A stretch of DNA of 64,000 nt, taken from positions 1 to 64,000 of the forward strand of contig JBBDNB010000027.1 of assembly GCA_040877935.1 (NCBI GenBank), read 5' to 3'. Position 1 is the first letter of the stretch, and each line of letters starts with the position of its first letter. The translations under genes and the position numbers were made by a program. The DNA comes from Chitinophagales bacterium (GTDB lineage Bacteria; Bacteroidota; Bacteroidia; Chitinophagales; CAIOSU01). Below, piece by piece: positions 33,255-37,551 of this stretch. The notes beneath the pieces were generated by a model, which saw only the letters and a program-made list of their open reading frames with translations, was not told the DNA's origin and did no database searches.

Positions 33255-33397
33255 GACAGCCAGGTTGTGATCAAATAATAAAGCAGGATCTGGAAAATCA
33301 GAAAACCGACCAATACGTAGTACCAGCCTTTCCAGTAGCCAAAAAGCGGAGCATCGTTTTCAGGGGGCGATTTGTCCTCCATGATATCATTTTCCAT
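33251..33397 (-). CDS. 48-residue single-helix membrane protein coupled to the symporter
   Basis: The minus-strand reading frame runs ATG at 33397 to TGA at 33251: a polar N-terminus (M-E-N-D-I-M-E-D-K-S-P-P), then G-Y-W-K-G-W-Y-Y and one hydrophobic segment (about residues 27-44) ending T-T-W-L-S. The ATG overlaps the PIG-L stop by 11 bp and its stop overlaps the symporter ATG as TCATGA. A second in-frame ATG at 33382 gives 43 residues. By position it resembles the small subunits known for some SSS symporters (inference). Confidence 0.7.
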   Translation of the reverse strand: MENDIMEDKSPPENDAPLFGYWKGWYYVLVGFLIFQILLYYLITTWLS

Positions 33398-35879
33398 AAT
33401 CGATCATATTGCTGAGTAAACGAAATGCGCCCGGCACACCTGCGGGCAATTCCCTGAAAAATGAAATGCCAGTGTACATAAAATGTCCTTTTCCAAAAGG
33501 CGCAATCAAAACACTGCCCTGTAGCGGTTCCTCGCCCGGATCGTTCATTTCAAAAACCGTTTGATAACGCTCGTCCCAGGTTTGGGCAAAATACAAGCCA
33601 CGCTCCTGCACCCAACCTTCAAAATCTGCTTTGCCGAGCTTATTTGGTTCGGATGCCAATTTTTTACCGCTGTCCAGAATCCTCATTTCTGCCTCTTCTA
33701 CCGTCACCCTGCCGTGATCAATTTCAAAAGGATAGGGCCCGATTTTATCCGTGAGCAATCCCCTTTTGGTTTGGTACTGCACAATCAGCGTTCCGCCATT
33801 TTTCACGTAATCCATCAATGCATCATATTTCTGCAAAAGCCATTCCTCGGTATTGTAAGCGCGCACGCCAATCAATATTGTGGGAAATTGGGAAAGCTCA
33901 GAAGCATCAAAATTGTCTTCATCAATCATGCTGACTTCATAGCCGGCTTCCTCCAGATTTTTATTCACCAGATCGCCAGCGCCCATGATATATCCGACCT
34001 TTTTTACATTTTGCGCACTTTCCAGTCGCAGCAATTTGGCTTCCGCATCGGGGAAAATACTTTGATATGGAATGTGGTCGTATTCTATATTTACAAAGCT
34101 TCTGTTCCAGCTTTTTTCACCAGAAACAAATACAGGTTTTATCGCTCCGCTTTTCTGTTTTTTTGAGGGCGAAATATTGAAAGCATAATTTTTCTCTTTG
34201 CCGGCCTCTTCCAAGCTTAGCGGAATTTCCTCCGGTTCAGATTTCCAGCCTTTGGGCAAATCCAGCTTAAGCGTGCCGCTTAGGTTTTCCTTCCAGCTTT
34301 TCAGTTTTATGCTGATTTCCCTTGCTTCATCCGAAGGAAAAATAAACACATCATTGCCCAGATTCAAACTCACATCGGGCGCAATAAAGAATGGGCGGTA
34401 CAATTCGCCTTTCACCCTGTCTGTCCATTTGTATTGCAGCGGAAGTTGGTATTCCAATTCGGCTCCCTGTATGTTCAATTTTACGCTGGCGAATATGCTC
34501 GCATCATTTTCCGGCATTCCTGTATATTCCATTCCGGGAATTTTAAACATCCCGATATTTTCCTGCGCTTCCCGCAACCAATATGCCTGATTTACAAGCG
34601 CATTATCCGCAATTTGCAATTCTGCCTCCACAACTTCTTCCTTATTATTTTCTAAATTTTCAGGCATTTCAAAAGAATTGAAAGCTGTATTGAATTGAAT
34701 GGATTCTACCGTGATTTTTGTATCACTTCGGTTCAATAATTTCACTTCAGCCTTGATTTTATTGCCCGCTACTGAATAATAATTTTCAGCCAAAGCTTCC
34801 AAATGCAAACCGCAAATGGCATAGATTACCTCGCTGAGCTCCTGCAATTTGATATCGACATAATGGTGGCTGCCTTTGATTTTTTGCAATTCCTTGTAAG
34901 CGGTCAACAATGCGGGCAAAATCAAAGTAGGGTTTTTCGGGTCGAAATTTTCTGCTGCTTTATTGAGGAAAAGGCCAGCATTTTGTGCGCCATCAATTCT
35001 GCCCCAGGTCAGGTTTACATCATCAAAAAGATCTGCCTTGGCCGTATCGCCCATCACGTATTCCAAGTATTCGGGCTGTTCACCTCTTGTTTTTTCCGAG
35101 CCAAAACCCTGGCTTTTGTGCTGACTGCGACTTTCCGCTGCAATCTCAGAGCAAGACAAGCCCAGTTCTGGCAGGTAAGCGCCAATATCCACAATTATTT
35201 TATTGGTGGTATCCAACTCCTGCCCCGTTCTGCGGTAAAACCAGGGCGATGTATTCCAGTACAATCTTTTGGGCGACCAGGTATCCAATGTTTTCAATTG
35301 CTCGGGAAATGCTTCCGGATCTCCGGCCATTTCAAAGGCTTTTTCGGCCAAATCTGCCGAGGCGCTGTGGTGGCCGTGGGTCGGGTAATTGTATTTGCTG
35401 GGAGGAAAGCGCGTGATCAGCACATCGGGGCGAAACTGCCGAATGACATAAACCATATCTTCCAGCACCTGCGCCTCATTCCAAATATTCAGGCTTTCAT
35501 CTGATGTTTTGGAATAGCCAAAATCTACCGCACGCGTAAAAAACTGGTGTCCACCATCAATCCTGCGTGCAGCGAGCAGCTCTTGTGTGCGGATGATGCC
35601 GAGATAAGAACCAATTTCGGTGCCGATCATATTTTGTCCGCCATCACCACGGGTGAGTGAGAGGTAGCCGCTCCTGATATTGCGCTTTTTCGAAAGCCAG
35701 GTAATCAGGCGGGTGTTTTCATCATCGGGATGGGCGGCAATGTAAAGGGCCGTACCGAGGGTATTGAGTTTTTCAAGCCGCAACTGGATTTCGCCCGCAT
35801 TTAGGTTTTGGGGCTTTTCGGCAGATAGATGCAGGCAAGTAAATAGTATTAAAAAAAGAACAGCACTTATTCTCAGCAT
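33387..35879 (-). CDS. PIG-L family deacetylase with C-terminal glutamine-amidotransferase-like region
   Basis: 830 residues, signal peptide to about residue 20, then a LmbE/PIG-L domain (about 30-240) with the zinc motif A-A-H-P-D-D-E-N and P-T-H-G-H-H-S-A-S. A long beta-rich middle (about 350-600) and a C-terminal region with V-G-Y-I-M-G-A-G-D-L-V and F-G-K-G-H-F-M-Y-T-G-I-S segments typical of GATase1-like/DUF4350-type folds. PIG-L enzymes deacetylate N-acetylglucosamine conjugates. Probably periplasmic. It heads a coupled trio with a small protein and the symporter. Confidence 0.88.
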   Translation of the reverse strand: MLRISAVLFLILFTCLHLSAEKPQNLNAGEIQLRLEKLNTLGTALYIAAHPDDENTRLITWLSKKRNIRSGYLSLTRGDGGQNMIGTEIGSYLGIIRTQELLAARRIDGGHQFFTRAVDFGYSKTSDESLNIWNEAQVLEDMVYVIRQFRPDVLITRFPPSKYNYPTHGHHSASADLAEKAFEMAGDPEAFPEQLKTLDTWSPKRLYWNTSPWFYRRTGQELDTTNKIIVDIGAYLPELGLSCSEIAAESRSQHKSQGFGSEKTRGEQPEYLEYVMGDTAKADLFDDVNLTWGRIDGAQNAGLFLNKAAENFDPKNPTLILPALLTAYKELQKIKGSHHYVDIKLQELSEVIYAICGLHLEALAENYYSVAGNKIKAEVKLLNRSDTKITVESIQFNTAFNSFEMPENLENNKEEVVEAELQIADNALVNQAYWLREAQENIGMFKIPGMEYTGMPENDASIFASVKLNIQGAELEYQLPLQYKWTDRVKGELYRPFFIAPDVSLNLGNDVFIFPSDEAREISIKLKSWKENLSGTLKLDLPKGWKSEPEEIPLSLEEAGKEKNYAFNISPSKKQKSGAIKPVFVSGEKSWNRSFVNIEYDHIPYQSIFPDAEAKLLRLESAQNVKKVGYIMGAGDLVNKNLEEAGYEVSMIDEDNFDASELSQFPTILIGVRAYNTEEWLLQKYDALMDYVKNGGTLIVQYQTKRGLLTDKIGPYPFEIDHGRVTVEEAEMRILDSGKKLASEPNKLGKADFEGWVQERGLYFAQTWDERYQTVFEMNDPGEEPLQGSVLIAPFGKGHFMYTGISFFRELPAGVPGAFRLLSNMIDYGK

Positions 35880-36030: not shown

Positions 36031-36081
36031 CATAGATGGAGATTCTGGATAAATTTTTTACAAAAATTTTCCAGAATGACG
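36031..36081. repeat. Palindromic repeat copy A beside the GIY-YIG gene
   Basis: A stem ATTCTGGA-t-AAATTTTT (from 36042) pairs with AAAAATTT-t-CCAGAAT, framed by CATAGATGGAG on the left and GACG on the right. A second, longer copy occurs at 36542-36621 in the same orientation. The surrounding 35880-36190 gap has no other gene. Confidence 0.75.
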
Positions 36082-36134
36082 AGTTTATTTAGGAGCATTC
36101 CCTTGAATAAACCAATGAAACTAACAACCGAAAC

Positions 36135-36162
36135 CGTCATTCCTGCGAAGGCAGGAATCTCC
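36135..36162. repeat. Palindromic repeat copy B (inverted)
   Basis: CGTCATTCCTGCGAAGGCAG followed by GAATCTCC: a TTCCTGC-gaag-GCAGGAA hairpin with the same CGTCATTC and GAATCTCC borders, but in opposite orientation to copies A and C. Confidence 0.75.
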
Positions 36163-36190
36163 AAAAATCAAGAAGATAGCCAGTTAATAC

Positions 36191-36493
36191 CTATTGAAAA
36201 TCCGCAACTTCATCAAACAAGTCACGCATATCCGGGTTTTGTTTTTTAATCAAATTTATCTTCCACTCCCTTTTCCAATATTTCAATTGCTTTTCTTTTA
36301 TAATAGCTGATTCAATCCTGTCATAAAATTCAAAATAAACCAGATCGGTACAATTGTATTTTTCAGTAAAATCGGAGCCCATAGCATTTTTATGCTCATA
36401 AGCCCTTTTGTAAAGGTTACTTGTCACACCAATATATAAAACTGTGCGATAAGGGTTCGAAACAATATACACATAGCCGCCCTTTGGTTTCAT
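36191..36493 (-). CDS. GIY-YIG nuclease-domain protein
   Basis: 100 residues from the ATG at 36493 (M-K-P-K). GIY-YIG motif as V-Y9-I...L-Y20-I-G22, catalytic R30 and the helix E-S-A-I-I-K-E-K-Q-L-K with the conserved glutamate. Stand-alone single-domain members of this size are common in Bacteroidota; endonuclease activity is plausible but unproven. It lies between repeat copies A/B and C. Confidence 0.88.
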   Translation of the reverse strand: MKPKGGYVYIVSNPYRTVLYIGVTSNLYKRAYEHKNAMGSDFTEKYNCTDLVYFEFYDRIESAIIKEKQLKYWKREWKINLIKKQNPDMRDLFDEVADFQ

Positions 36494-36541
36494 TACTTGG
36501 GATTTTTTAAAGCAGCAAAAAATAAGCATTTATTTCGTTTC

Positions 36542-36621
36542 CATAGATGGAGATTCCCTGCCTTGCCAAATCAAATGCAGGCAGGCGGATAAATTTTTGA
36601 AAAAAATTTTCCAGAATGACG
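36542..36621. repeat. Palindromic repeat copy C
   Basis: CATAGATGGAGATTC at the left and AAATTTTCCAGAATGACG at the right match the borders of copy A. The centre contains an extra CCTGCCT...AGGCAGG hairpin. Just upstream of the GIY-YIG start region on its transcribed strand. Confidence 0.75.
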
Positions 36622-36677: not shown

Positions 36678-37551
36678 CTATAATTCCTTTAATTTTTCAA
36701 TTACCGTTACAGCATCTCTGCTTAGTCGTGTAAATGCGAACCACTTTTTCCCTAAATCCTTGAGGGAAGCGCCAATATGATATACCGTTTCGTCATCAAT
36801 AATTAGGAAGCGGTCATGGGACTTATCAAATTTTTGTAGTTCTATAGCAGGATATTGTACATTGTGTTTTTCTATATCAAGCAGCAAGGTTTTAGAAAAT
36901 CTCTTACAATATATCGTTGTAAGTACATTTTTCTTTCTTTTCGAAAGCAACAGTAATACAGAATCATCGATATAATTATCAATTAGCCTGATTGATTTAT
37001 TAGCACTGCGGATTAAATCAGATACAAATGAATAGGAATCAAAGGTTTGCCCATCAAAATAAACACCTTGACTGGGTATGTCTGAACGAGATTCTAAAGC
37101 TTTAAAAACTTTCTCAAAATTTTGTTCGTTTTCTATTTGCTTCAATTCAAAATTATCCATTTGTTGAAGCAGCCTTGTGTATGCTGAAAAAGATTGTCGC
37201 ATTTTGATAAAGGCATCCATTATTAATATGCTCACCTGGATGGCAGTTTTGCTTCTCAAAACAGCTGAAAGCATAGCAACACCCTGTTCAGGGCAAATAT
37301 CTTCGACCACCGTGTTCAGAACTTGAGGTAACAAATTGTGACCTCAAGCCATCAAATTCTTTTTCTGTCAATTGAAATCTAAATCTTGCAGGAAAACGAT
37401 CAATATTTCTTTTTACAGCCTGGTTGAGCGCCTTGGTTTCTACATCATACATTTCTGCAATATCCTTGTCAAGCATTACCTGCTGACCCCAAACATTATA
37501 AATCCGGTTTTCTATGTCTTCTTGCTTGTATTTAGTAATTGCTTTTTTCAT
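36678..37551 (-). pseudogene. ORF6N-domain protein with PLD-like tail, frameshifted
   Basis: Two overlapping frames together match one protein. The first (37288-37551, 87 residues) is an ORF6N domain beginning V-M-L-D-K-D-I-A-E-M-Y-D-V-E-T and ending G-G-R-R-Y-L-P-stop. The second (36678-37334) resumes with E-Q-G-V-A-M-L-S-A-V-L-R-S and ends in a PLD-like region, H-D-R-F-L-I-I-D-D-E-T-V-Y-H-I-G-A-S-L-K-D-L-G-K-K-W. In intact relatives R-Y-L-P is followed by a short Y-x-F-T-E-Q-G, so about 11 bp appear deleted near 37310. Phage or defence-island regulators carry ORF6N domains. Confidence 0.8.

Follow-up and report, generated by a model that had tools for sequence, protein, structure and literature searches.

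Ssn is reportedly a GIY-YIG nuclease that cuts single-stranded repeats (NTS) in Neisseria. Among short dispersed palindromes, the CGTC-tagged REPs carry a CGTC or TGTC tag, a stem of 8-9 bp that starts with AT, a loop of 4-5 nt and a short unpaired tail, mostly CCA, and in the CGTC-1 family the stem is 8 and the loop 4 (Di Nocera et al. 2013, PMC3733652). According to the same paper these elements occur in five phyla and apparently lack a dedicated transposase; A. lipoferum, S. meliloti and Neisseria are named as carriers, and the parts of its text on which we rely contain no mention of GIY.

The DNA analysed here is a 64,000-nucleotide stretch from a Chitinophagales bacterium (contig JBBDNB010000027.1, positions 1 to 64,000), called the window below, in which three REPs, A, B and C, accompany a GIY-YIG gene as follows:

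36031-36081, tag on the minus strand (CGTC ends at 36081): REP copy A, single-strand folding z -5.8
36135-36162, tag on the plus strand: REP copy B, single-strand folding z -4.3
36191-36493, minus strand: GIY-YIG gene, 100 aa from its likely start, PF01541
36191-36529, minus strand: open frame around the GIY-YIG gene, 112 aa
36542-36621, tag on the minus strand (CGTC ends at 36621): REP copy C, single-strand folding z -3.1
36557-36586, no strand: insert in copy C, 30 nt, partly palindromic, not in A

Set against the published description, within the parts of it used here, A, B and C all carry the CGTC tag, an AT-starting stem and a short tail, and copy B matches CGTC-1 exactly in stem (8 bp) and loop (4 nt); they differ in that the window tail is CTCC instead of the usual CCA and that the stems of A and C are longer, A having 16 bp with one bulged base and a 3-nt loop and C being branched. 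Copy A runs from its CGTC tag through this hairpin to a GAATCTCC tail followed by a CATCTATG extension, which is common to A, C and three of eight solo copies elsewhere in the genome (L008, L009 and L016). Copy B consists of CGTC, its stem (ATTCCTGC/GCAGGAAT), the loop and CTCC, and copy C is an A-type REP with the 30-nt insert, for which a branched fold is predicted. The first two stem positions are AT pairs in all three copies, the CGTC tag is left unpaired when they are folded as single-stranded DNA, and all three fold better than shuffles in that form (z values above).

Along the coding strand of the gene one meets C(+), the gene, B(-) and A(+) in turn. C (upstream) and B (downstream) flank the gene with their tags outward, and copy A is an additional REP outside the cassette, just beyond B and facing it. 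An earlier, sequence-only reading of this DNA had A and C as direct copies and B as inverted, with edge motifs common to all three and a GIY-YIG protein of about 100 residues between A/B and C; each of these points holds at the coordinates above, the common edges being CGTCATTC and GAATCTCC, and the gene (PF01541, E 9.9e-14) is the sole ORF of at least 60 aa between B and C. The 8-mer edges by themselves are not rare in the window (3 matches each versus 1.33 and 1.97 expected), so their chance clustering was dropped as the basis of a test, and copy number, palindromes and controls were used instead; by these the whole REP element is not due to chance. Beyond copy C lies an ORF6N-domain gene (36678-37551, minus strand; PADLOC candidate PDC-S05, anti-repressor-like) that is split into two overlapping frames, N-terminal 37288-37551 and C-terminal 36678-37334, and is either a frameshifted pseudogene or the product of a sequencing error.

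The window protein has a complete GIY-YIG domain, and Tyr21, Tyr32, Arg42, Glu79 and Asn98 are invariant in an alignment of 13 sequences; the Tyr, Arg, Glu and Asn residues presumably have the catalytic roles usual in the superfamily. Its AlphaFold2 model (pLDDT 86, pTM 0.78) is confident except for the last block and for residues 1-13 of the 112-aa frame, the latter with pLDDT below 50. We therefore take M13 as the likely start and 100 aa as the likely product. The best structural matches in a fold search were UPF0213, Slx1 and UvrC, all weak and none at E <= 0.001; the closest solved relatives, the UPF0213 GIY-YIG proteins 1zg2 and 1ywl, are distant in sequence (best E 6.4e-8), and 1zg2 is closest by fold too. 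A search of NCBIfam gave no name for the protein. PADLOC gave no match, and a defence role was rejected on that ground.

In the host's own genome (4.03 Mb in 63 contigs) the exact pattern GTCATTC-N4-34-GAATCTCC has 10 copies and its reversed control none, and the repeats resemble the CGTC-tagged REPs in being repeated, dispersed and mostly extragenic. A pattern with a shorter tail has 16 matches (2 for the control), 13 of them palindromic by eye. When these 13 copies were examined at inner stem positions 5-9, 49 of 65 cells pair (shuffle mean 26.2, maximum 44), a count made after the three non-palindromic matches had been removed by eye and with near-identical copies retained. The outer edges of the own-genome REPs are thus constant and their inner stems variable yet still pairing. 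All eight tested solo REPs lie outside ORFs of 100 aa or more, and 11 of the 13 palindromic matches are on contigs without a PF01541 match, so that most own-genome REPs are solo.

The association between gene and repeat was followed across the phylum with a profile made from the window protein and 12 homologues, which has a match at E 1e-10 or better in 65 of 118 Bacteroidota genomes and up to 15 matches in one genome among the matches listed. We fetched 100 regions with 109 GIY-YIG genes, best first among the matches listed: a core set of 80 regions and 89 genes (matches down to E 4.5e-31, omitting the window's own gene and four matches near contig ends), and a weaker-scoring set of 20 genes hand-picked as a part of those between E 3e-22 and 8e-18; matches scoring between the two ranges were left out of the sample. 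A common repeat (score >=40) is present in both 500-bp flanks of 83 of the 109 GIY-YIG genes and of 7 of 281 other genes in the same regions, where direct-repeat scores are inflated at the clustered genes L066, L076, L081, L119 and L127, whose flanks may include a neighbouring copy. Runs of N aside, the top enriched 5-mer in the 300-bp flanks, with no motif preset, is GTCAT (421 versus 162). With one gene taken per region (80 genes), GTC-tagged palindromes number 6.42 per kb at 0-150 bp from the gene, 3.55 at 150-300 bp and about 0.2 beyond 1.2 kb, and five permuted tags are flat at 0.33 per kb at most in every distance bin; the detector requires AT after GTC, so stems of the CGTCA- or CGTCG-type are missed. 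At least one GTC-tagged palindrome lies within 350 bp of 82 of the 89 core genes, on both sides in 68 (innermost REPs outward in 31, inward in 15 and same-way in 22), and 7 core genes have none within that distance. Repeats unlinked to GIY-YIG genes genome-wide had been held to speak against the sequence-only reading; such solo copies are indeed the larger part of the own-genome REPs, as above, but seen from the genes the link stands at 82 of 89, and mostly solo REPs together with a REP at most genes is the pattern expected of a non-autonomous repeat and its enzyme gene.

At the level of whole genomes, one REP pattern has 2531 occurrences in the 118 genomes and its reverse 147, and the median REP count is 20 for the 65 genomes that the profile hits versus 4 for the other 53 (p 9e-10), although eight of these 53 contain 15 or more REPs. 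REP count rises with match number (Spearman 0.61, gene counts including the weaker-scoring matches), though the reversed control pattern also correlates (0.45). Between genomes, protein identity and REP stem identity are correlated (Mantel r 0.27, P 5e-4, which is the floor of 2000 permutations; 94 genes), and as the proteins become more alike, REP identity climbs from 0.50 to 0.84, with a value of 0.76 for the 13 pairs of the top bin. This matching of protein and REP could be explained by plain co-inheritance of gene and repeat.

Among the 20 weaker-scoring genes, a set defined by score and not by tree position, 15 form one clade (100/99), 3 another, and 2 are long-branched among core rows. 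None of the 20 has a GTC-tagged palindrome within 350 bp. Around the 15-gene clade (L131, L132, L135-L143, L145-L147 and L149) there are no GTC-tagged REPs, and 13 of the 15 are flanked by other repeats, many of them TCGAG-rich, such as TTCTCGATAC...CACTCGAACTGAC; repeats of this other kind are absent from the flanks of the remaining five. For all 20 genes taken together, TCGAG heads the list of flanking 5-mers (69 versus 10 expected). The gene-repeat association is thus specific to the GIY-YIG subfamily. A third short GIY-YIG type was also seen (L003, which is in the own genome at G000:C21:90460-90657, and L038, L040, L042, L043 and L044), with direct repeats of a tRNA-gene segment and nearby sequence on either side, one of the two being interrupted by a short palindrome in some cases; ARAGORN places a tRNA within 300 bp of 4 of these six genes, which were chosen for such repeats. 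A tRNA-linked reading of the window-type cassette was rejected, as ARAGORN, applied to the 300 bp around each of the 89 core and the 20 weaker-scoring genes, found no tRNA.

Outside the Bacteroidota, the window protein matches 33 records of a plasmid collection, including two gonococcal records of chromosome size. CGTC-type palindromes stand on both sides in 12 of 14 fetched homologue loci (from alpha-, beta- and gammaproteobacteria, a cyanobacterium and Spirosoma), two of the 12 being one Sphingobium site; the Photobacterium locus has one on one side, and none was found at the Rhizobium K1/93 locus (L152). The stem that follows the tag varies with lineage: ATTCCCGC in Neisseria and Aeromonas, ATCCTCGGG in Sinorhizobium and Shinella, ACCCCGGG in Sphingobium and GCCCCGTG in Novosphingobium. 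CCA tails are present at the REPs of the proteobacterial homologues, and the Roseivirga and gammaproteobacterial MAG homologues have the arrangement of the window. Unannotated gonococcal ORFs are 43-45% identical to the window protein, and the one that was fetched lies among CGTCATTCCCGCG..GGCGGGAATC CGTC palindromes. In a 122-row protein tree, whose short alignment limits resolution, with many forks unresolved and a bootstrap that had not settled, the window protein pairs with the Roseivirga protein (99/91), and it falls with the gonococcal, Aeromonas and alphaproteobacterial proteins, mixed with Bacteroidota proteins, in one 45-row group (97/92).

Is the cassette absent from the same place in some relatives? 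This was seen in three genera, two of which show a solo REP in its stead. In Azospirillum lipoferum 4B (L159) a cassette separates sufB from sufC within the suf cluster; eleven other Azospirillum records, among the matches listed, match both flanks and not the middle, and in the four that were aligned the cassette is absent, the exact junction being blurred by diverged intergenic sequence. Seven Sphingobium plasmids carry a cassette between fnrL and a response regulator gene and four are gapped there, among the matches listed; three of the gapped ones were aligned, and two of these retain one symmetric REP (CGTC...GACG) and one has no REP. Sinorhizobium meliloti Ak57 (L151) has two tandem GIY-YIG cassettes, the first truncated to the end of its gene, where Sinorhizobium K101 has a solo REP with one tag base changed; since Ak57 repeats, together with the cassette, the sequence that the right flank in K101 matches, the K101 solo REP may be a remnant. 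Solo REPs at such sites may be what a deletion left behind, and not unoccupied targets. For the Rhizobium CIAT894 site there was no clean empty site among the matches listed. The window cassette itself has no two-sided empty site in six same-family genomes. The neighbour at 33387-35879 has a match in all six and the other neighbour in none of them, and the comparison is therefore one-sided; on the 5' side of the six matches there is no GIY-YIG match among the matches listed, and a loose REP pattern has 3 matches there, in two of the six stretches, which is about the permuted-tag rate in the window.

Dispersed copies were seen in one Bacteroidota genus, where a 524-bp unit (REP, gene, REP) occurs at several sites with 85-95% identity and sharp ends. 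The ends of this unit are inverted repeats, TTGTAGATGT..., that are unrelated to the REPs, and since they bound it, another transposase may have moved the unit. At the six sites of the seven near-full copies, REP pieces abut the ends at five by eye (one of these, L223, degenerate), and L214 is ambiguous. The copies L207, L208 and L215 are without the left outer end and start about 8 nt outside the left REP. The same genus has gene-less forms of 148-149 bp, centred on one symmetric REP (four copies, apparently at two sites). The loci L218-L221, L227 and L228 comprise MITE-like elements in which TTGTAGATGT inverted repeats enclose a REP core, and a 282-bp form (L227 and L228) whose interior is bracketed by REPs and gave no similarity to GIY-YIG genes; these are possible non-autonomous relatives of the cassette.

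Where cassettes at different sites were compared in pairs, which are not independent of one another, the point where similarity is lost lies no more than 6 nt from a REP tag in 58 of 245 cases on the left and 38 of 253 on the right, about four times more often than random positions fall that close (5% and 4%). When each gene contributes its best hit alone, REP tags coincide with just 11 of 66 similarity ends on the left and 16 of 66 on the right.

The arrangement, its subfamily-specific association, the presence and absence of cassettes elsewhere and the dispersed copies in one genus are observations from sequence comparison. We think it somewhat better than an even bet, with a probability of roughly 0.6, that B, gene and C (36135-36621) form a mobile nuclease cassette that would spread by the cutting of REP hairpins and copying during repair. 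The nuclease would recognise the CGTC tag and stem start of a REP that is folded as a hairpin in DNA made single-stranded by replication, uptake or transfer, and would cut within the stem-loop. Repair of the cut REP from a copy whose REP halves flank a cassette would copy the cassette into it; if the gene were left out of the copying, new stems or solo REPs would result. Several features suggest that the breaks fall within the hairpin: the constant outer edge with a variable but paired inner stem, inserts inside stems (as in copy C), and cassettes that take the place of the central part of a symmetric REP. Because GIY-YIG enzymes hydrolyse DNA and are not known to transfer strands, spread would go via host repair as in homing endonucleases, and the cassette would behave as these do, except that it would aim at a repeat and not at one gene. 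The nuclease-driven repeat mobiliser suggested by the sequence-only reading is partly supported, by the cross-genome association, presence and absence at given sites and dispersed copies; the step from association to catalysed mobility is the part that we infer.

Other accounts of the same facts are conceivable. The nuclease could serve the host by cutting REP-bearing single-stranded DNA to control uptake or recombination, the REPs being its sites and nothing spreading by itself. A role of this kind is reported for Ssn, acting on the Neisseria NTS repeats (Chenal et al. 2025), and the gonococcal homologue among CGTCATTCCCGCG..GGCGGGAATC repeats fits it too. The parts of the 2013 paper used here equate Neisseria CGTC-1 elements with dRS3 (Di Nocera et al. 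2013, PMC3733652), which fits as well. A pure service nuclease sits badly, however, with whole cassettes that are present or absent at a given site, with tandem and dispersed copies and with up to 15 profile matches per genome among the matches listed, and we consider it unlikely. That REPs simply accumulate in intergenic regions, with the gene there by accident, agrees with the solo copies outside ORFs (8 of 8 tested) but hardly with flank repeats at 83 of 109 GIY-YIG genes versus 7 of 281 control genes, or with GTC-tagged REPs at 0 of 20 weaker-scoring GIY-YIG genes in the same phylum sample; its probability is close to nil.

The cassette could also be a passenger, bracketed by REPs and moved in MITE-like fashion by another transposase acting on outer inverted repeats, with the nuclease uninvolved. 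The 524-bp units with TTGTAGATGT terminal inverted repeats and the gene-less 148-149-bp forms are what this would produce, in one genus. Those outer repeats were noticed only in that genus, the one where they were looked at, and even there L207, L208 and L215 begin near the left REP with no left outer end; across phyla the gene's constant partner is the tagged REP, and common DNA stops at REP tags more often than by chance. We therefore rate the passenger account as decidedly improbable, and retain a cassette spread by its own nuclease as the main reading.

A wider generalisation, to which we would give slightly less than even odds, is that stand-alone GIY-YIG nucleases are general repeat drivers, each subfamily with its own repeat class (CGTC REPs, TCGAG-rich repeats or tRNA-gene copies) that it would cut in single-stranded DNA, itself being copied into the cut. 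They would then be the long-missing mobilisers of CGTC REPs, and REP-like repeats would have arisen at least twice, with unrelated enzymes. If the GIY-YIG family is the partner, a 100-aa protein and a 28-nt hairpin allow a direct test of where a widespread class of bacterial repeats comes from, and a nuclease-driven, transposase-free mode of spread would be able to seed tens to hundreds of hairpins per genome.

How does the cassette compare with known systems? An insertion sequence has a transposase, terminal inverted repeats and a target-site duplication; here the GIY-YIG gene is the one ORF of at least 60 aa between B and C, and outer inverted repeats were seen in one other genus, with an ambiguous target-site duplication. 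The likeness to Ssn is that of a stand-alone GIY-YIG protein of about 100 aa, and the gonococcal homologue ORF, probably Ssn itself, is in the same group (97/92) as the window protein; the window protein is probably a distant member of the Ssn family, and the enzyme family is probably already known. The differences are that the window protein is from another phylum, that its repeats have another stem and that the cassette and its mobility are added here. With regard to the CGTC REPs, the named carriers A. lipoferum, S. meliloti and Neisseria all have the gene-REP pair in our data, and where the 2013 paper, in the parts used, leaves these repeats without a dedicated transposase, the GIY-YIG gene is here a constant partner. 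Neither a link of GIY-YIG genes to REPs, dRS3 or CGTC repeats nor a separate repeat class per GIY-YIG subfamily was found in the open-licence literature, which does not imply absence from print, and the link of GIY-YIG genes to CGTC REPs may be the new part. The REP/RAYT systems (REPtrons) share with the cassette the dispersed short tagged palindromes and a small enzyme gene flanked by the same palindromes; RAYT is a Y1 HUH transposase with a GTAG tag and the window has a GIY-YIG nuclease with a CGTC tag, which places it outside that class. By analogy, the cassette would be for CGTC REPs the functional counterpart of what RAYT is supposed to be for GTAG REPs.
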